Origin: Thermoguttaceae bacterium
GTDB lineage: Bacteria; Planctomycetota; Planctomycetia; Pirellulales; Thermoguttaceae
Length of the DNA stretch: 45,973 nt
Assembly: GCA_029975295.1 (NCBI GenBank)
Contig: JARKPK010000055.1
Span: 1-45,973, forward strand
Reading direction: 5' to 3'
Position 1 is the first letter of the stretch. The number at the start of each line of letters is the position of its first letter. Made by a program: the position numbers and the translations under genes. Below are positions 172-23,810 of this stretch, piece by piece. Below the pieces are notes generated by a model. The model saw only the letters and a program-made list of their open reading frames with translations, did not search any database and had not been told where the DNA came from.

Positions 172-3100
172 CGTTTATCCCGCCCACGGACAGCCCGATC
201 TGATCGCCCGCGAGGTCCTTTCGGCCGCCGCCGATTTGCACTGGCCCGGCGCACTGAGGGTTTCGGCCGCTCGGGGGTTTTTGCTTCAGGGCGATTTTTC
301 GGCCGACGCCGTCGAGCTGTGGGCCCGGCGGCTGCTGTGCGATCCGGTGGTCGAACGGGCGCTGGTGGCCCGGCTGGGCGATCCGCGGCTTACGACGCCT
401 CCGCCCGATCAACCGGTGCTCGTGCATGTGTTGCCCAAGCCGGGCGTGATGGACCCGGTGGCCCAAAGCGCGCTAAAAGCGATCAACGACCTGATGGGTG
501 CCGAAAACGGAGCGGCCCACCGCGACCAGCCCGAGGGCGCGACCGGCAGTGCCGCCGGGCCCGACGGTCGCCCGCGCGTCGAGGCCGTGCGCACGTTGAA
601 GAAGTATTGGATCGGCGGGCTGAGCGAGGCCGACGCCCGGCAACTGGCCGCCAAGGTGCTGGCCAACGACGCCATCGAGCAGGTGATCGTCGGGCCGCTG
701 GGCTTCGAACGCCTCGAAGTGGGCGCGCCCTACCGCTTCGAGCTGAAAACCGTGCCGCTCCGCGACATGAATGACGAGCAGCTCATGGCGCTAAGCCGCA
801 CCGGGCAGCTCTATCTGTCGTTGCCGGAAATGCAAACGATTCAGGCGCATTTTCGCCGACTGGGCCGCGACCCCACCGACATCGAACTGGAAACGCTGGC
901 CCAAACCTGGAGCGAACATTGCAGCCATAAGACGTTGGCCGGGCGCATCCGCTACCGCGACGAGCGCGGCGAGCAGTTTTTCGAGAACATGCTCCGCGAA
1001 ACGATCTTCGCCGCCACGCAGGAAATCCGCCGCCGCTTGGGCGACGACGATTGGTGCGTCAGCGTCTTCCGCGACAACGCCGGGGTGATCCGCTTCGACG
1101 AGCAATACAACGTCTGCTTCAAGGTCGAAACGCACAACCACCCCTCGGCCTTGGAGCCTTACGGCGGAGCGAACACGGGCATCGGTGGGGTGATCCGCGA
1201 TCCGCTGGGCACGGGCATGGGTGCGAAACCCCTATGCAATACCGACGTGTTCTGCTTCGCCCCGCCCGACACCCCGCCGGAAACCCTGCCGCCCGGCGTG
1301 CTCCATCCGCGGCGCGTGATGCGCGGGGTGGTGGCCGGCGTGCGCGACTACGGCAACCGCATGGGCATCCCCACGATCAACGGCGCGATCTACTTCGATC
1401 CCCGCTACTTGGGCAACCCGTTGGTCTATTGCGGCACCGTGGGGTTGATTCCCCGCGACAAATCGTTCAAACAGCCGCAGCCGGGCGATCTGATCGTGGC
1501 CGTCGGCGGGCGGACGGGCCGCGACGGCATCCACGGGGCCACCTTCAGCTCGGCCGAGCTGACCAGCGAAAGCGAACAACTCTCGGGCGGAGCCGTGCAA
1601 ATCGGCAACGCCATCACCGAGAAGATGCTGCTCGATGTGATCCTCGAAGCGCGCGACCGCGGGCTGTATCACGCCATCACCGATTGCGGGGCGGGCGGGT
1701 TCTCGTCGGCCGTCGGCGAAATGGGCGAAGAGATCGGCGCCGAAGTGTGGTTGGAAAAGGCCCCGTTGAAGTACGAAGGCCTTTCGTACACCGAAATCTG
1801 GATTTCCGAGGCCCAAGAGCGAATGGTGCTGGCCGTGGGCGAAGACCAATGGCCCGAGCTTTCGCGGCTGTGCGCCTCCGAAGGCGTCGAGGCCACGGTG
1901 ATCGGGCGGTTCGTGCCTACCGGCATGCTGAAACTCACCTACCAAAGCCATGTGGTGGGCGAACTGGCGATGGAGTTCCTCCACGGCGGTCGGCCGCCGG
2001 TGGTTCGCGAGGCGGTGTATCAACCGGCGCAACTCGCTTCGTCTGCGGCCCGGGCAGCGGGCGTTTCGTCGGCGCAAGCGCCGGGCAGCGGCTCGGCCCT
2101 CGATCCGGCCGATTGCCTGCACCGCATCCTCAGCTCGCTCAACGTGTGCAGCAAGCATTGGGTCATTCGCCAATACGATCACGAGGTTCAGGGCGGCAGC
2201 GTGGTCAAGCCGCTGGTGGGCGTATGCGACGACGGCCCGGGCGACGCCGCGGTGATCCGCCCGGTGCTCGGTTCGCCGCGCGGACTGGCCATCGGCTGCG
2301 GCATGAACCCGCGGCTGGGCGACTTGGACCCCTATTGGATGGCCGCCGCCGCCATCGACGAAGCCGTGCGCAACTGCGTTGCCGTGGGTGCCGATCCGCA
2401 GCGAATCGCCATTCTCGACAACTTCTGCTGGGGCGCCACCGATCGGCCCGAAACGCTCGGCTCGCTGGTTCGGGCGGCGCTCGGGTGCCGCGATACGGCC
2501 GTGGCGCTGGGCACGCCGTTCATCAGCGGCAAAGACAGCTTGAACAACGAATTCCGCCCGGCCGGCGGTGAACCGATCTCGATTCCGCCCTCGCTGTTGA
2601 TTAGCGCCATCGGCATCGTGCCCGATGTGGCCCGGGCGGTAACCATGGATTTCAAAACGCCGGGCAACGCCATCTACCTGGTGGGGCGCACGGCCGACGA
2701 ACTGGGCGGTTCGCACCTGCATTTGGTGGCCGGGCGCGACGGCGATCCGACCGCAGCCGTGCCCAAACACGACGCCGCGCTGGCCAAAGCGATTTTCGCC
2801 GCGGTGCACCGCGCGATCGCCTGCGGACTGGTTCGAGCCTGCCACGACCTGAGCGAAGGCGGGCTGGCCGCCGCGCTGGCCGAATCGGCCTTCAGCGGGC
2901 TGCTCGGCGCGACGGTCGAGTTGCAGGCGGTGCCGCGCACCGCCGGGCTAGACGACCCGATCACGGTGCTCTTCAGCGAGTCGAACAGCCGTTTGCTGTG
3001 CGAAGTGGCCCCGGGCGACGAAGCGGCCTTCGCCGACGAGCTTTCGGCCGCCGGCGTGCCGCACGCGCGCATCGGCACAGTTGCCGACGATCAACAGTTG

Positions 3101-3184
3101 ATCTGCCGCTGGGCCGGGCAAACCGTGTTGCGGGCCGACGTGCCCGCGCTGAAACAATCGTGGCAGCGGCCGCTGAGTTGGTAA
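155..3184 (+). CDS. purL: Phosphoribosylformylglycinamidine synthase PurL with fused PurS-like N-terminus
   Basis: Converts FGAR, ATP and glutamine-derived ammonia to FGAM in de novo purine synthesis. The 1009-residue protein has a PurS-like segment at about 90-180 ([10 protein letters not shown], then a [12 protein letters not shown] stretch and [11 protein letters not shown]). A weaker similar repeat precedes it at about 1-80. The synthetase core follows, with [50 protein letters not shown] and [12 protein letters not shown]. Free-standing small PurL is usually near 740 residues, so the extra length is the N-terminal fusion plus a low-complexity Ala/Ser linker near 630-655 between the two PurL halves. 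ATG 155 is chosen over ATG 137 because it begins the conserved EVDVYPA strand and follows a GAGAAG purine run. PurQ lies 180 bp downstream. Confidence 0.93.
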
Positions 3185-3364
3185 TGCCTGGTCCGGCAGC
3201 CTTGTGCGAAGCAAGGTTCGCTTTGGCAATCGCTCCGGCCTGGCGAACAAGAAGATGAAACGATCGGTTCCGTGCGAGCCTTTCGCGGCGAACCGGCGCC
3301 GATCGCGATCGAGTATCCAACGAAACGATAACGCGAACCGACGACGAAACCTGACGAACCTCCG

Positions 3365-5495: not shown

Positions 5496-6014
5496 ATGAA
5501 GTGTCTTTCGCTGCGTCAGCCGTGGGCCTCGCTGATCGCCTCGGGGCGAAAAACGATCGAGGTTCGCTCCTGGCGCACGCATTATCGCGGTCCGCTGGTG
5601 ATCTGCGCCTCGGCCCGTCCGCGGCAACCGCCCTTGCCCTCCGCTGCGGCGGTGTGCTTGGTGGAACTGATCGACGTGCGGCCGCTTGCGGCTGACGACC
5701 TGCCGGCCGCCTGCCTGCCGGAGATCAAGCTCGAGGGTCTGTTCGCCTGGGTGCTCAGCGGCGCCGTGCCGCTGAGCGAACCGTTCGGTCCGATCCGCGG
5801 CCGACTGAAGCTCTTTGATCCGCCGGCGGAACTGCGGGAGTTGTGCCGCCCGCTGCTGTCGGCCCGTGAGTCGGACGCGACGCCCCTCATCGCCGAGCAG
5901 CGTCTCTCCGGCGCGAAGCCCCGCCGCTGCAATGCGCGCAACATCAGGCGGCCGGAGCAGCCCACCGGGTCTGCGGTTGGGCCCAGAGTCGCGGCGGCCC
6001 GCAAAGCCGAATGA
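5496..6014 (+). CDS. ASCH domain protein
   Basis: A 172-residue protein whose first ~115 residues match the ASCH fold, a PUA-like beta-barrel thought to bind RNA or modified nucleotides. The signature is at the very N-terminus: LSLRQPWASLIASGRKTIEVRSW, with the GxKxxExR motif, then YRGPLVICAS and a later GPIRGRLKLFD strand. The last ~50 residues (Arg/Ala/Pro-rich) look unstructured and may be poorly conserved. It begins 18 bp after the M42 peptidase stop. No catalytic function is assigned; ASCH proteins include RNA-binding regulators and amidohydrolases such as YqfB. Confidence 0.8.
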   Translation: MKCLSLRQPWASLIASGRKTIEVRSWRTHYRGPLVICASARPRQPPLPSAAAVCLVELIDVRPLAADDLPAACLPEIKLEGLFAWVLSGAVPLSEPFGPIRGRLKLFDPPAELRELCRPLLSARESDATPLIAEQRLSGAKPRRCNARNIRRPEQPTGSAVGPRVAAARKAE

Positions 6015-6074: not shown

Positions 6075-6686
6075 GTGAAATATCTTCCCGAACTCTTCGA
6101 GAGAAATCGCCGTTGGGCGGCCGAGCAGCTTGCCGGCGATCCGTCGTTCTTCGAGCGGCTGTGCGAGATTCAGCGGCCGAAGTATTTCTGGATCGGCTGC
6201 GCCGACAGCCGCGTGCCGGCCAATCAGATCATCGGCATGCAGCCGGGCGAGGTGTTCGTGCATCGCAACGTGGCCAACCGCTACGGCGACGACGACGTGA
6301 ACGCCCGAGCGGTGCTGGAATACGCCGTCGAGGCGTTAGGTGTCGAGCACATCATCGTATGTGGTCACTATGGATGCGGAGGGGTGCGGGCGGCTCTCGA
6401 AGGCGGCGTGCAGGGGGCAGTGGCTCAATGGATCGCGCCGATTGCCAAACTGGCCGAGGCCCGCCGGGCGGAATTAGAGGCCTGCGCCGATCCGGCAAAG
6501 CGATGGGCGAAACTCTGCGAACTGAACGTGGCCGACGTGCTCAGCCGCGTGGCCGGAAGCCGCGCGGTGCGCCAAGCCTGGGATGCAGGCCGCCCGCTGG
6601 CCCTCCACGGCTGGATCTACGACCTGCACGACGGACTGCTGCGCGATCTGAACATGACCGTCGGCGCAAACATCAGCCTGCCGTAA
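6075..6686 (+). CDS. can: Beta-class carbonic anhydrase
   Basis: Interconverts CO2 and bicarbonate in the cytoplasm. The 203-residue sequence has Cys42, Asp44 and Arg46 in GCADSRVPAN, HRNVANRY, and His98/Cys101 in GHYGCGGV. These are the zinc ligands (Cys, His, Cys) and the Asp-Arg dyad of the beta class. The C-terminal LHGWIYDLHDG matches the usual end of the family. It begins with GTG at 6075; GGAGGA at 6061-6066 gives an 8-nt spacer and decides the start. It lies 60 bp after the ASCH gene on the same strand and faces the (-) lipoprotein gene. Confidence 0.96.
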   Translation: MKYLPELFERNRRWAAEQLAGDPSFFERLCEIQRPKYFWIGCADSRVPANQIIGMQPGEVFVHRNVANRYGDDDVNARAVLEYAVEALGVEHIIVCGHYGCGGVRAALEGGVQGAVAQWIAPIAKLAEARRAELEACADPAKRWAKLCELNVADVLSRVAGSRAVRQAWDAGRPLALHGWIYDLHDGLLRDLNMTVGANISLP

Positions 6687-20051: not shown

Positions 20052-21152
20052 TTAATCGCAGTGCTCTACAGACTCGTCAAGAACGCTATCTGTTGTGTGT
20101 GCCAGATACTCGATATCGGCAAGCTCTCGGACGCTGCCATATGACAAGTAAGTACAACGCTCCGACAGCGGCGAATGCTCAAGCAGTGAGAACACGGGGC
20201 GAGTGATTTCCTGAAAGACCTTCTCTCGCCTTGCTTCTGGAGCGACGATATGCAAAGCCACATTGATATTCGGAAGCAATGCACACAAATCCGCCATTCT
20301 CAATAGTCCGGAGTAAATTGCCGTAGAATGCTCTACTTCAAACGCTCGACAAATCGCCCGTCCCTTTAACCAAAGCACATCAATCCGCTTGATGGTATCC
20401 AAGGTTGTCTCGTCGTAATTGAGCGGAAGTCGTTCGAGCAACGAACCCGGATGAGGATCCCAGTGCTCAAGCACTCTTGTGCGGTCGTTCATTGGCAACC
20501 AAATCTTCAGGCCCATCGACTCACCGATCTTGCACAAATCAGCCTGAACACGTATTGATTCGCGGTCGGAAGAGAGAGGCTGAGCCTCTGTAGTCTCTTC
20601 CTCCTGCGAATCGTCGGGTACAGTCACGCCGACGGAACCTCCGGGGCGCAGAATCCGACGTCTCCACGCGCGTTTGTACTGGTTCTGATCGACGGGGAAA
20701 GTGCGTGACTGGCTAAGTTGCTCCCGAAGCAGACTATCCAAGAACGCCGCGTCTTCAGCTTCGAGACGTTGAAGGCTTCTACGCAGCGGGCCGAGCCAGT
20801 AACCACCGGGAGTAACTTCACGAGTGAACGAAAGCCGCGAAAAAACTTCGTGCTCCTGCATCGGAACCGTCTTCTCAAGGGGAAGCCAAACGATGGGCCT
20901 GACCTTGAATCGAACTACGAAGGGATCATCTTCAGGTAAGAAGATAGGCGTTCGTTCAACGAATGGCCCTTCAAGAACTTCAAGAACGCCAATCCAGCGG
21001 GACATACGAACCATGTAACACAGGAACTTATCGCCACCCCGAACTTTTTCAGCCATCGTACGCTGCGATTCCTGAAAGCCCGAGACGGTCCGGTCGGATC
21101 GGGAAAAGGCTTCGTAAGTTTCTGGCGTGAAAAGATTAGTCCAATAGGTCAT
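20052..21152 (-). CDS. EVE-domain protein with putative PD-(D/E)XK-like nuclease domain
   Basis: A 366-residue protein, not identified as a named gene. Residues 1-~125 match an EVE (PUA-like) domain: YWTNLFTPETYEAF, VSGFQESQRTMAEKVRGGDKFLCYM, SRWIGVLEVLEGPF and a final VW..LSF strand. EVE domains bind modified bases and occur fused to restriction nucleases. After a linker with an acidic patch (~180-200), the C-terminal ~165 residues contain IDVLW (Asp258) and AFEVEHSTAIYSGLLRM (Glu272, Glu274), a pattern like the catalytic strands of PD-(D/E)XK nucleases, although the expected Lys is not obvious. ATG 21152 follows AGGGA. Base composition is visibly less GC-rich than its neighbours. A decayed transposase lies directly upstream. 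A modification-dependent restriction role is inference. Confidence 0.7.
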   Translation of the reverse strand: MTYWTNLFTPETYEAFSRSDRTVSGFQESQRTMAEKVRGGDKFLCYMVRMSRWIGVLEVLEGPFVERTPIFLPEDDPFVVRFKVRPIVWLPLEKTVPMQEHEVFSRLSFTREVTPGGYWLGPLRRSLQRLEAEDAAFLDSLLREQLSQSRTFPVDQNQYKRAWRRRILRPGGSVGVTVPDDSQEEETTEAQPLSSDRESIRVQADLCKIGESMGLKIWLPMNDRTRVLEHWDPHPGSLLERLPLNYDETTLDTIKRIDVLWLKGRAICRAFEVEHSTAIYSGLLRMADLCALLPNINVALHIVAPEARREKVFQEITRPVFSLLEHSPLSERCTYLSYGSVRELADIEYLAHTTDSVLDESVEHCD

Positions 21153-21234
21153 CTTGTCGATCCCTGCGACAGCCCAGGACTGGCGGACTCCGAAAAACGT
21201 CGTTTTTACGCCACTGCGGCCGACGTAGTATTCG

Positions 21235-21640
21235 GATTCGTATTCGTCCGGGGAAAGGTACCCCAACGCCTCGTGAAGGCGGCGGGGATTGTAGAACGTC
21301 TCAATGTATCGGATATCGGACATCGGATATCGGGACACGCTCGATAGCGCTTCGTCCAAATTAGCAAACCGCCTACGGTTCGTCCATTCATGCTTCAACG
21401 ACCAAAGCCGGCTGCGTTGCGCGGTGCGGCCTGCCACCTGTTGCGACAGCACTCCCGTGGTCGCTTCAAGAGGCTGTGGTCGAGGCCCCACAACGCAACC
21501 ACCTCGAACGACCGGATGAAGTGTTCCATCGCCGCGTTGTCGTAGCAGCAGCCGCTGCAGATCATCGAGCAGGTGATGCCCAACGTCGGCAAGACGCCTT
21601 GGCGTGCCTCGCCGGTGAATTAGAATCGCTGCTTCTTTAA
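21235..21640 (-). pseudogene. Decayed IS3-family transposase (ORFB) fragment
   Basis: The remnant is split over two frames. One frame (about 21592-21509) encodes a CYDNAAMEHFIRSF segment like the NCYDNAxxESFF motif near the catalytic Glu of IS3 ORFB. Another (about 21401-21240) encodes SLKHEWTNRRRFANLDEA and YIETFYNPRRLHEALGYLSPDEYE, the standard C-terminal end. The two are out of frame by about 100 bp of unrelated translation, and the first two catalytic Asp residues are missing. No terminal inverted repeats were recognised. The last frame happens to run on into the EVE gene without a stop; this looks accidental. Confidence 0.8.
21306..21333 (+). repeat. Four tandem heptamers (RTATCGG-like) inside the transposase remnant
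   Basis: Four consecutive 7-bp units: GTATCGG, ATATCGG, ACATCGG, ATATCGG. On the coding (minus) strand they insert about seven residues (RYPMSDI) between SSVS and RYIETFYN, where the family has no insert. Three extra heptamers equal 21 bp, so the frame is kept. Confidence 0.8.
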
Positions 21641-21761: not shown

Positions 21762-21897
21762 GAGGTTCATAGTGGGCCTCGCCGGCTCGTTGTTGGGGGA
21801 CCGGGCCGTCGAGCGTGGATCGCGCAGGTGGACCGCCCGAGGGGTTGATCGACGGGCGGCCGTCACGACCGTCTCAACTCTGCCGGGTGAGTCGCTC

Positions 21898-22296
21898 ATG
21901 CACACGACGCCGAGAACTGCGTCGGCCTTCGGGCGGGCCGAACGCGAAGAAGACCGCATTCGTCAAGTCTTCAAACTGCCTGCACACGCCCCGATTCCCC
22001 GTGTCGGCAAAGAAACGCTTCACCAATATCACGAATATCTTGCCGCCAAGTTGATCTTTCCCTTCAAAGCGCTCTACGCCGAAACGCAACCGCCGGTTCG
22101 TCAACTGGTTCGCTACGTCACGGTGCTCGGCATGAGCGACGACATCCGCCGGCGGCAGTTCGGACTCTTCTGCAAGGTGCGGCTCGACGACGATCAAGAA
22201 ACCGAGCTCCCCTTGGCCGATCTGGGCATTCAGGCCGACGACCCCAACCGCGAACTTATCGACGACTACCTCTACTGGCTGTGGAACGCCAACTGA
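21898..22296 (+). CDS. CcbP-like (calcium-binding protein family) small protein
   Basis: A 132-residue soluble protein. The region from KETLHQYHEYLAAKLIFPFKALY through VTVLGMSDDIRRRQFGLFCKVRLDDDQETELPLADLGI to ELIDDYLYWLWN resembles the CcbP-type calcium-binding family known from cyanobacteria: a FPF-Ala strand, a small barrel, an acidic turn and a C-terminal DDYxxWxWN motif. The acidic stretch LDDDQETE could bind a cation. ATG 21898 is chosen because it starts just before the family region; the upstream extension is Arg-rich. Family assignment is from memory of the motif pattern and needs a profile search. Confidence 0.5.
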   Translation: MHTTPRTASAFGRAEREEDRIRQVFKLPAHAPIPRVGKETLHQYHEYLAAKLIFPFKALYAETQPPVRQLVRYVTVLGMSDDIRRRQFGLFCKVRLDDDQETELPLADLGIQADDPNRELIDDYLYWLWNAN

Positions 22297-22628: not shown

Positions 22629-23810
22629 ATGGAACGTCGCGATTTTTCCGAGGACGCACCGGGCCGTTTGGCTGTCGTGGGGAACACGGTGGCATTCGTC
22701 CCGAATGACCTCCCTCCCCGTCTCACGTGGGACGACGAGACGTTCGGACTTGTCGGTGCCGCGGAACGGGCGTTGGGGCAGCTTGCCGCCATCGGTCGCG
22801 GGTTTGCCAACCCGCATCTGCTCATGCGGCCCTTTATCCGGCGCGAAGCAGTGCTTTCCAGTCGAATCGAAGGCACGCAGGCATCGGTATCCGACTTGGT
22901 GCTGTTTGAAATCGATCCGGAGGTCGAGCAGAGAGTTCCCGATGTCCGCGAAGTGGCCAACTATATTCAGGCCTTGGAATACGGCCTGTCTCGCGTTAAG
23001 CAGATTCCCCTATCCTTGAGACTGATCCGCGAACTGCACGGGTTGTTGATGCAAGGCGTTCGGGGCAGTGATCGATCGGCAGGCGAATTCCGGCGCGCGC
23101 AAGTGTGGATTGGACCGCCGGGATGCGCCATCGAGCAAGCCCGACACGTTCCGCCTCCGGCTGATCAAACGATGCATGCCTGCCTGGATTCTTTAGAGAA
23201 GTATCTCCACGCGCCCTCCACGCTGCCCCCCATAGTGCGATTGGCCTTGGTTCACTATCAGTTCGAGGCGATTCATCCCTTCAACGACGGAAATGGCCGC
23301 GTCGGACGTTTGCTCATCACACTGATGCTTTGTCTCGATGGGATTCTGCCGCAACCATTGCTTTACCTATCCGCCTATTTTGATCGGTGTCGGCAGGAGT
23401 ACTACGATCACTTGCGCGATATCAGTCGTCGCGGCGAATGGATCGCCTGGATTCGGTTCTTCGCACAGGGAGTAGTCGAAGAAGCCCGCGACGCCGTCGG
23501 CCGCGCCGAGCGATTGAACGACCTGCGCCGGCAATATATCGAAGCGATTTCCACTGCCCGAACTTCCGCCCTTTTGACGAGACTGGTGGACCATCTCTTT
23601 TCTCAGCCGGCCGTGTCGATTGCGGTGGTTCGGCAGTGGCTCGATGTCACCGCCGCCACGGCGCAAAAGCATGTCGATCGCCTGCTTGAACACGGAATCC
23701 TGGAAGAGAGGACCGGGCGACGACGTAATCGTTATTACTTAGCCAAGGGAATCGTCCAGGCGATTCAAGAGCCGCACGCAGCCGCCGCGAATCGGGAGGC
23801 CAGCGAATGA
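22629..23810 (+). CDS. Fic family protein (AMPylase type) with N-terminal inhibitory motif and C-terminal winged helix
   Basis: A 393-residue Fic enzyme, expected to transfer AMP (or another nucleotide) to hydroxyl side chains of a target protein. The catalytic loop is intact: His216 in AIHPFNDGNGRVGR. The class II inhibitory helix is in the same chain: VLSSRIEGT, with Glu81 in the S/TxxxE(G/N) position. Residues ~325-375 form a winged-helix segment (VVRQWLDVTAATAQKHVDRLLEHGILEERTGRRRNRYYLA) typical of the Fic/DOC plus HTH subgroup. The ATG has no strong ribosome-binding site. It overlaps the next gene by ATGA. Target unknown; it may act in stress regulation or phage defence. Confidence 0.93.
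   Translation: MERRDFSEDAPGRLAVVGNTVAFVPNDLPPRLTWDDETFGLVGAAERALGQLAAIGRGFANPHLLMRPFIRREAVLSSRIEGTQASVSDLVLFEIDPEVEQRVPDVREVANYIQALEYGLSRVKQIPLSLRLIRELHGLLMQGVRGSDRSAGEFRRAQVWIGPPGCAIEQARHVPPPADQTMHACLDSLEKYLHAPSTLPPIVRLALVHYQFEAIHPFNDGNGRVGRLLITLMLCLDGILPQPLLYLSAYFDRCRQEYYDHLRDISRRGEWIAWIRFFAQGVVEEARDAVGRAERLNDLRRQYIEAISTARTSALLTRLVDHLFSQPAVSIAVVRQWLDVTAATAQKHVDRLLEHGILEERTGRRRNRYYLAKGIVQAIQEPHAAAANREASE

Follow-up and report, generated by a model that had tools for sequence, protein, structure and literature searches.

The window analyzed here is the whole stretch of DNA, 45,973 nucleotides long. On its minus strand lies an intact gene whose predicted product joins an N-terminal EVE domain to a C-terminal nuclease module, and a genome search recovered a single copy of it in this genome. 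The gene, its parts and the features discussed with it are the following:

5496-6014, plus strand: small ASCH-domain protein of the PUA superfamily (Pfam 5.8e-10), in surroundings of normal GC
20052..21152, minus strand: EVE-nuclease fusion gene, an intact open reading frame of 366 amino acids, with the ATG at 21152 and the stop at 20052-20054
20055..20576, minus strand: nuclease module, residues 193-366 (PADLOC PDLC03534, AlphaFold2 model, weak structure matches to restriction endonucleases)
20331..20339, minus strand: codons of E272-V273-E274, where an E-x-E replaces the usual E-x-K (E272 and E274 invariant in 39/39 rows, query included)
20379..20381, minus strand: codon of D258, a predicted metal ligand (invariant in 39/39 rows, query included)
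20577..20657, minus strand: flexible linker, residues 166-192 (pLDDT below 50 in the full-length model)
20718..21152, minus strand: EVE domain (PUA superfamily), residues 1-145, a putative modified-base reader (PDB profile match, Foldseek)
21163..21621, minus strand: insertion-sequence transposase remnant, C-terminal integrase core (rve_2, 2.5e-5 over 21153-21413)
21886-22296, plus strand: CcbP-like calcium-binding protein (Pfam 1.8e-10), with the transposase remnant on one side and the Fic gene on the other
22629..23810, plus strand: SoFic-like Fic protein (PADLOC SoFic 5.3e-117; Pfam Fic_N and Fic)

The first-pass annotation had placed the gene at 20052-21152, and these coordinates proved correct, on the minus strand, with one correction to add. 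Upstream of the ATG the reading frame stays open as far as 21959 (635 amino acids), because the transposase remnant continues in frame, without a stop, into the EVE-nuclease gene. To place the start codon, the protein was aligned with 12 homologues carrying both domains (37-74% identity; alignment A1, 13 rows with the query). Leaving out L014, which is cut at its N-terminal end, we observed a methionine at the column of the ATG at 21152 in 8 of the 11 homologues complete at this end, which supports this start. The remnant, recognized from the outset as a decayed transposase, matches another copy in the genome (G000:C185) at 92% over 457 bases, and the homology of other transposase copies stops 5 to 12 bases before the ATG. 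Together with the CcbP-like and SoFic-like genes, the remnant and the EVE-nuclease gene make up a low-GC stretch. As had been remarked at first sight, the gene itself is poorer in GC than its neighbours, with a GC of 0.52 (remainder of the window, 0.64) and a GC3 of 0.54 (median of the 27 called neighbour genes, 0.79). The SoFic-like gene, 1.5 kb from the EVE-nuclease gene, is a possible second defence gene, and the two may form a small defence island.

We analyzed the N-terminal domain by sequence profiles and by structure. With the single sequence, the Pfam EVE model (PF01878) scored 13 bits for a cut-off of 23 (E 0.11); the scores of two relatives were likewise below the cut-off (L012, E 0.0028; L016, E 0.00092), a search with the same model across the genome gave no match, and the NCBIfam model PRK00809 matched the protein at 1.1e-6, also below its own cut-off. 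The family profile built from alignment A1 matched the solved EVE structures 2p5d (9.7e-10) and 1wmm (6.5e-9), and that from alignment A3 (35 rows) matched them at 2.7e-11 and 5.1e-11, over profile positions 1-142. A Foldseek search with the full-length model recovered 1wmm (5.7e-9), YTH domains including YTHDF2 (about 1e-6) and the restriction enzyme VcaM4I (6yex, 7.1e-5). The domain thus has both homology and fold in common with solved EVE proteins, and the EVE-like domain first read from the letters is real. F78 aligns opposite a tyrosine of PH1033; in VcaM4I, the pocket of the EVE domain is described in excerpts of PMC7897488 as formed by P24, W82 and Y130. Separately, L016 encodes an EVE protein of the same family at 1501-2058, 185 amino acids long, which ends before the nuclease module and is either truncated or a stand-alone reader.

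The full-length AlphaFold2 model has a mean pLDDT of 85.2 and a pTM of 0.53, and this low pTM fits two modelled domains with a flexible linker between them. Since EVE and YTH proteins made up the Foldseek result for this model among the best 50 rows, the nuclease domain was modelled and searched separately. For this domain alone (39 rows), AlphaFold2 gave a confident PD-(D/E)XK-type core at residues about 193-346 (pLDDT 92.1, pTM 0.88). Its elements follow in the order helix 7-26, strand 30-32, strand 73-77, strand 80-87, helix 93-106 and strand 113-118 in the numbering of the domain model, which, as modelled, is the helix-strand core order of the PD-(D/E)XK superfamily. The initial suggestion of such a fold in the C-terminal part was therefore borne out by the structure prediction. 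At the sequence level, the PADLOC model REase_II PDLC03534, a type II restriction enzyme model, matched residues 196-358 at 2e-14, the match covering only positions 175-337 of the 351 of the model; all 10 relatives given to PADLOC matched it as well, with E values from 6.7e-16 to 1.1e-4.

Comparisons of the nuclease domain with solved structures were weaker. In Foldseek the best matches were restriction enzymes (EcoT38I 0.025, BsaWI 0.028), none of them at an E value of 0.001 or better, and PpnN and integrin I domains appeared within the first 15 rows. With VIA-align, the top match was the small subunit of R.BspD6I (Z 8.4, rmsd 3.8, 137 aligned residues), and restriction enzymes took 7 of the first 8 rows (Z 7.2-8.4), 5 of these 7 being BspD6I, on a scale where models lacking a clear match commonly score Z 7 to 8 and where families absent from the list are not excluded. 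Nt.BspD6I, BsaWI, BstEII, Bse634I, SgrAI, EcoT38I and BamHI were also listed, at Z 5.9-7.9, along with folds unrelated to nucleases at Z 6 and below (PpnN, Z 6.0). Solved PD-(D/E)XK enzymes (BspD6I, BsaWI, BstEII, Bse634I, SgrAI, EcoT38I and BamHI) thus resemble the module at the level of the fold (Z 5.9-8.4), with no detectable relation in sequence: the nuclease profile found no sequence match among solved nucleases, and its best hit, at E 0.28, was a ribosomal protein. These solved PD-(D/E)XK enzymes recognise unmodified sites. We assign the PD-(D/E)XK fold from the helix and strand order of the model, the restriction enzymes at the top of the VIA list and the conserved acidic residues, taken together.

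These acidic residues lie in two motifs pointed out in the first-pass annotation, IDVLW (257-261) and AFEVEHST (270-277), both of which are present. Over the 39 aligned rows, query included, G210, D258, W261, E272 and E274 are invariant. The predicted active site reads D-x13-E-x-E, with its acidic residues on strands 2 and 3 as in the PD-(D/E)XK superfamily, and a glutamate occupies the usual lysine position in 39/39 rows; a canonical D-ExK site was accordingly rejected. BamHI likewise has a glutamate at the third active-site position, and the lysine is therefore not defining for the superfamily. Position 285 is basic throughout (arginine in 34 of the 39 rows, lysine in 5), and judging from this conservation it could be a second candidate for the role of the absent lysine. 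The early concern that no catalytic lysine was visible is answered by the invariant D-ExE, at the level of conservation rather than of chemistry.

We then compared composition and selection across the EVE-bearing loci. Total GC of the EVE-nuclease gene was below that of the flanks in all 15 loci measured (the 16 EVE-bearing loci minus L003), and GC3 was below the neighbour median in 13 of the 15, the exceptions being L049 and L039; each of these medians is taken over 2 to 27 neighbour genes of the locus, filtered by length and codon bias. For the GC, context and motif analyses alike, gene calls came from an ORF picker written in-house. Between the query and its five closest homologues (L001-L005), pN was 0.16-0.19 and pS 0.79-0.86, the latter saturated. 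The only dN/dS that could be computed was an omega of 0.13 for L003 and L005, the other 20 pairs being saturated at synonymous sites. Low pN beside saturated pS, together with this omega, indicates that the protein is kept under purifying selection.

The distribution of the gene is patchy. Among 392 genomes of the window's phylum, 26 matched, 8 of them over both domains (the window's own genome included in both counts), and a profile search of 40 relatives, again with its own genome, gave 3 matches, 2 of them full length. The second full-length relative, from the window's own family, is 40% identical. Among 111 genomes from the phylum of L006, a Deinococcota carrier, 7 matched, 1 over the full length, and a scan of genome contigs returned 6 full-length loci plus the archaeal locus L007. 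Two IMG/VR viral contigs encoding the protein (L038 and L039) were found by the family profile and none by single-protein queries; annotated phage records held no close relatives, and the protein had no match in PHROGs. In the tree of the nuclease module, a clade of 12 rows brings together the Deinococcota row, L007, both viral rows and 8 further rows (7 from the window's phylum, and L002), whereas five other EVE rows of the window's phylum fall outside it; outside is also where the 40% identical relative from its own family lies. Composition, patchy distribution and gene tree together support the recent acquisition proposed at first. In an empty-site search, purD was present in 39 of 41 relatives and the flanking beta-helix gene in 25 of 41 (own genome included); no empty site was seen, and in the single-contig genome G167 about 590 kb separate the two genes, which makes the junction something other than a simple insertion.

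Neighbourhood searches, which covered selected neighbours, revealed varied settings. On the viral contig L039, 1.9 kb separate the gene from a tail tape measure gene (phrog_167, 2.9e-12), a phage-like primase/helicase gene lies upstream in L005 (phrog_239, 2.1e-28), and an integrase lies within about 4 kb at L006 and L051. In L051 the EVE-nuclease gene is flanked by a Z1 helicase gene and, about 5 bases away, by a methyltransferase gene, next to which comes a GHKL ATPase gene; these three neighbours are on the opposite strand. An SNF2 helicase gene lies upstream in L054, and in L002 PADLOC PDC-M28A is matched at 2.8e-7 by a small gene lying upstream. The neighbours in L056, L058 and L048 are ordinary or housekeeping genes, which counts against a restriction role; one of those in L048 is a sigma-54 regulator by Pfam that also matches PADLOC RtcR models. 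Homologues thus do not always sit in housekeeping contexts, the pattern that would have spoken against a defence gene, although several do lie among ordinary genes. As a separate observation, the viral contig L038 encodes at 6101-6508, overlapping the EVE-nuclease gene at its end, a 135-amino-acid protein with a D...E-x-K-like pattern (GIDV...IIEVKG); it had no match in Pfam, PADLOC or PHROGs.

We next searched for accompanying methyltransferases. Within 10 kb of the gene in the window, no DNA-methyltransferase motif was found in ORFs of 150 amino acids or more. Among 17 stretches scanned, representing 16 distinct loci since L004 and L058 are one locus, a PADLOC-confirmed methyltransferase occurred in L051 only; one additional motif hit each in L001, L051 and L054 was judged to be chance. 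In L038, L039, L049, L050, L052, L053 and L055, one of the two flanks measured less than 1 kb. In L050, an ORF downstream, cut by the contig end, had no Pfam match and is below the length of the motif scan, so that absence of a methyltransferase is not established there; to our eye it has the look of a SAM enzyme. Apart from L051 and from the gaps left by short flanks and by L050, the gene goes without an accompanying methyltransferase, as expected of a type IV-like enzyme. Depletion of 5mC methyltransferases in carriers was considered as a hint to 5mC as the target and rejected: they occurred in 5 of 14 carriers and in 41 of 119 phylum genomes, sets that overlap by at least G000, G093 and G100, and the window's own genome has none. 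Since they are not depleted, the comparison lends no support to 5mC in particular as the target.

Overall, we consider it likely that the gene encodes a single-gene, NTP-independent, modification-dependent (type IV-like) restriction endonuclease of EVE-PD-(D/E)XK architecture. A single ORF holds separate reader and nuclease domains, as in type IV-like enzymes. The EVE fold, the nuclease core, D258, E272 and E274 held invariant across different N-termini and the PDLC03534 match argue for this reading, as do the lack of a methyltransferase within 10 kb, the patchy distribution, the viral copies, the low GC, the purifying selection and the tree. Weak structure matches and the lack of a nuclease sequence match count against it, as do the undepleted 5mC methyltransferases of the carriers. 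The single-gene type IV-like system proposed in the first-pass annotation is supported in its EVE fold, nuclease core and invariant D-ExE, with cutting that depends on modification as the predicted part. Published precedents point the same way. NTP-independent modification-dependent enzymes are described in excerpts of PMC7897488 as typically single-ORF fusions of reader and nuclease without a methyltransferase, which typically dimerise through their nuclease domains. One of them, VcaM4I (EVE-HNH; PDB 6yex), shares with the protein an N-terminal EVE reader, a C-terminal nuclease, a single ORF and the lack of a methyltransferase, and its EVE domain flips 5mC or 5hmC into the pocket; its nuclease is an HNH, whereas the protein in the window has a PD-(D/E)XK-type core and is thus not of the EVE-HNH kind (PMC7897488, excerpts). 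In Bell, Wolf and Koonin (2020, PMC7641849), EVE-PD(D/E)XK proteins form a class of putative type IV enzymes with the same core architecture and the same predicted role, the likeness being one of architecture. As this class is already published, the gene is an additional member of it.

Under this reading, the EVE domain would flip a modified base into its pocket, the likeliest candidate being a modified cytosine, and, through the flexible linker, would place or release the C-terminal nuclease, which is probably dimeric. D258, E272 and E274, conserved in all rows, would then coordinate the metal ions for hydrolysis of the DNA backbone close to the modified site. Unmodified host DNA would be spared, so that no methyltransferase would be needed, and the gene would move between species as an accessory defence gene.

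Three other explanations were weighed against restriction of modified DNA. EVE domains also read RNA, which counts against a DNA-restriction role, and since modified RNA is bound by both EVE and YTH domains and the EVE domain of this protein also resembles YTHDF2, the nuclease might instead be guided to modified RNA (tRNA or phage RNA) and act by growth arrest. EVE domains are also placed in toxin-antitoxin settings in the excerpts of PMC7641849. We nevertheless regard this RNA-directed role as unlikely, because restriction enzymes acting on DNA rank highest among the structural matches of the nuclease module, and because the module shares one open frame with a DNA-methyltransferase-like region in L028 and stands behind a weak HARE-HTH match in L030. 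The protein might also belong, as the nuclease, to a classical type II restriction system with its methyltransferase elsewhere, and the EVE domain would then do no more than add contacts to DNA; the module is labelled a type II restriction enzyme by PADLOC, and in L051 a methyltransferase gene lies about 5 bases off on the opposite strand. That gene, however, stands in a row with the GHKL ATPase gene and near the Z1 helicase gene, it is the only PADLOC-confirmed one among the 16 distinct loci, and the window has no methyltransferase motif within 10 kb, which makes a type II pairing quite improbable.

Finally, the presence of some copies among metabolic genes would suit a housekeeping or regulatory protein whose nuclease fold is conserved and non-catalytic. 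Such a role, which we hold to be highly improbable, is opposed by the foreign composition, the strict invariance of the acidic residues and the patchy distribution. Modification-dependent restriction remains the reading we prefer for this protein, and the EVE-nuclease gene alone would be an ordinary accessory defence gene. If confirmed, it would put an experimental test behind a published prediction.

The less described aspect is the nuclease itself, a portable D-ExE module with exchangeable N-terminal domains. When N-termini were compared over the 39 rows, an EVE domain was found in 16 (query included), a 240-residue domain in 14 (L017-L022, L024, L025, L027, L042-L045 and L047) and a 140-residue domain in 2. 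Four rows share the N-terminus of L030, a type common to L029, L031, L032 and L037, which in L030 matches HARE-HTH at 1.6e-4, below the cut-off, and in L037 itself only at 0.095. The remaining architectures occur in one row each. L033 has an N-terminus that we take, by its look, to be HTH-like. In L028, positions 1-2112 encode a PglX/DNA-methyltransferase-like region (PglX-type, 6.9e-34) and the nuclease module in one open frame. The N-terminus of L007, from an archaeal MAG (1881-3341), matches none of the other architectures, EVE included; it had no Pfam family, and the family profile aligned from position 122. HARE-HTH-REase fusions near Dnd systems are presented in excerpts of PMC10853773 as modification-discriminating nucleases. 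They too join a modified-base reader to an REase domain, but with another reader, and L030 pairs the module with its weak HARE-HTH match; this likeness is one of architecture.

In the module tree, the clade of 12 that contains L007 has a support of 100/100; its other 11 rows carry EVE, and more EVE rows lie outside. The exact position of L007 within this clade has moderate support (89/67), and the simplest reading of these sequences is that L007 exchanged or lost its EVE domain. At least two changes of the EVE label are required by the starred branches, and the placement of L028 and L033, both long branches, is unsure. We tentatively propose, at a little short of an even chance, that the D-ExE nuclease is a portable module paired with varied N-termini, making up one large unnamed family of modification-dependent restriction enzymes whose uncharacterised N-termini would be new modified-base readers. 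This proposal covers the EVE, HARE-HTH-like, 240-residue (also on plasmids), 140-residue, L007 and methyltransferase-like N-termini. Among the matches listed in a search of open-licence PMC text, a source where absence is not provable, there was no paper on a D-ExE module common to several N-termini. With at least two uncharacterised N-terminal domains, the module would give a starting point in the search for further readers of modified DNA, a class of reagents of use in base-modification mapping.

The 240-residue domain is a candidate DNA reader. It had no Pfam match and no sensible match among solved structures; a helix-hairpin-helix (glycosylase-like) identity, guessed from the motif GLGPAVAN, was rejected, as Pfam gave nothing and the best structure match (0.00068) was a fragment of a spike protein. 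Of 72,556 plasmid records, 99 contained the module, none of them with 80% of the query covered. Sphingobium or Sphingomonas accounted for 24 of these 99 records, and the two plasmid loci inspected (L034 and L035) both carry the 240-residue form.
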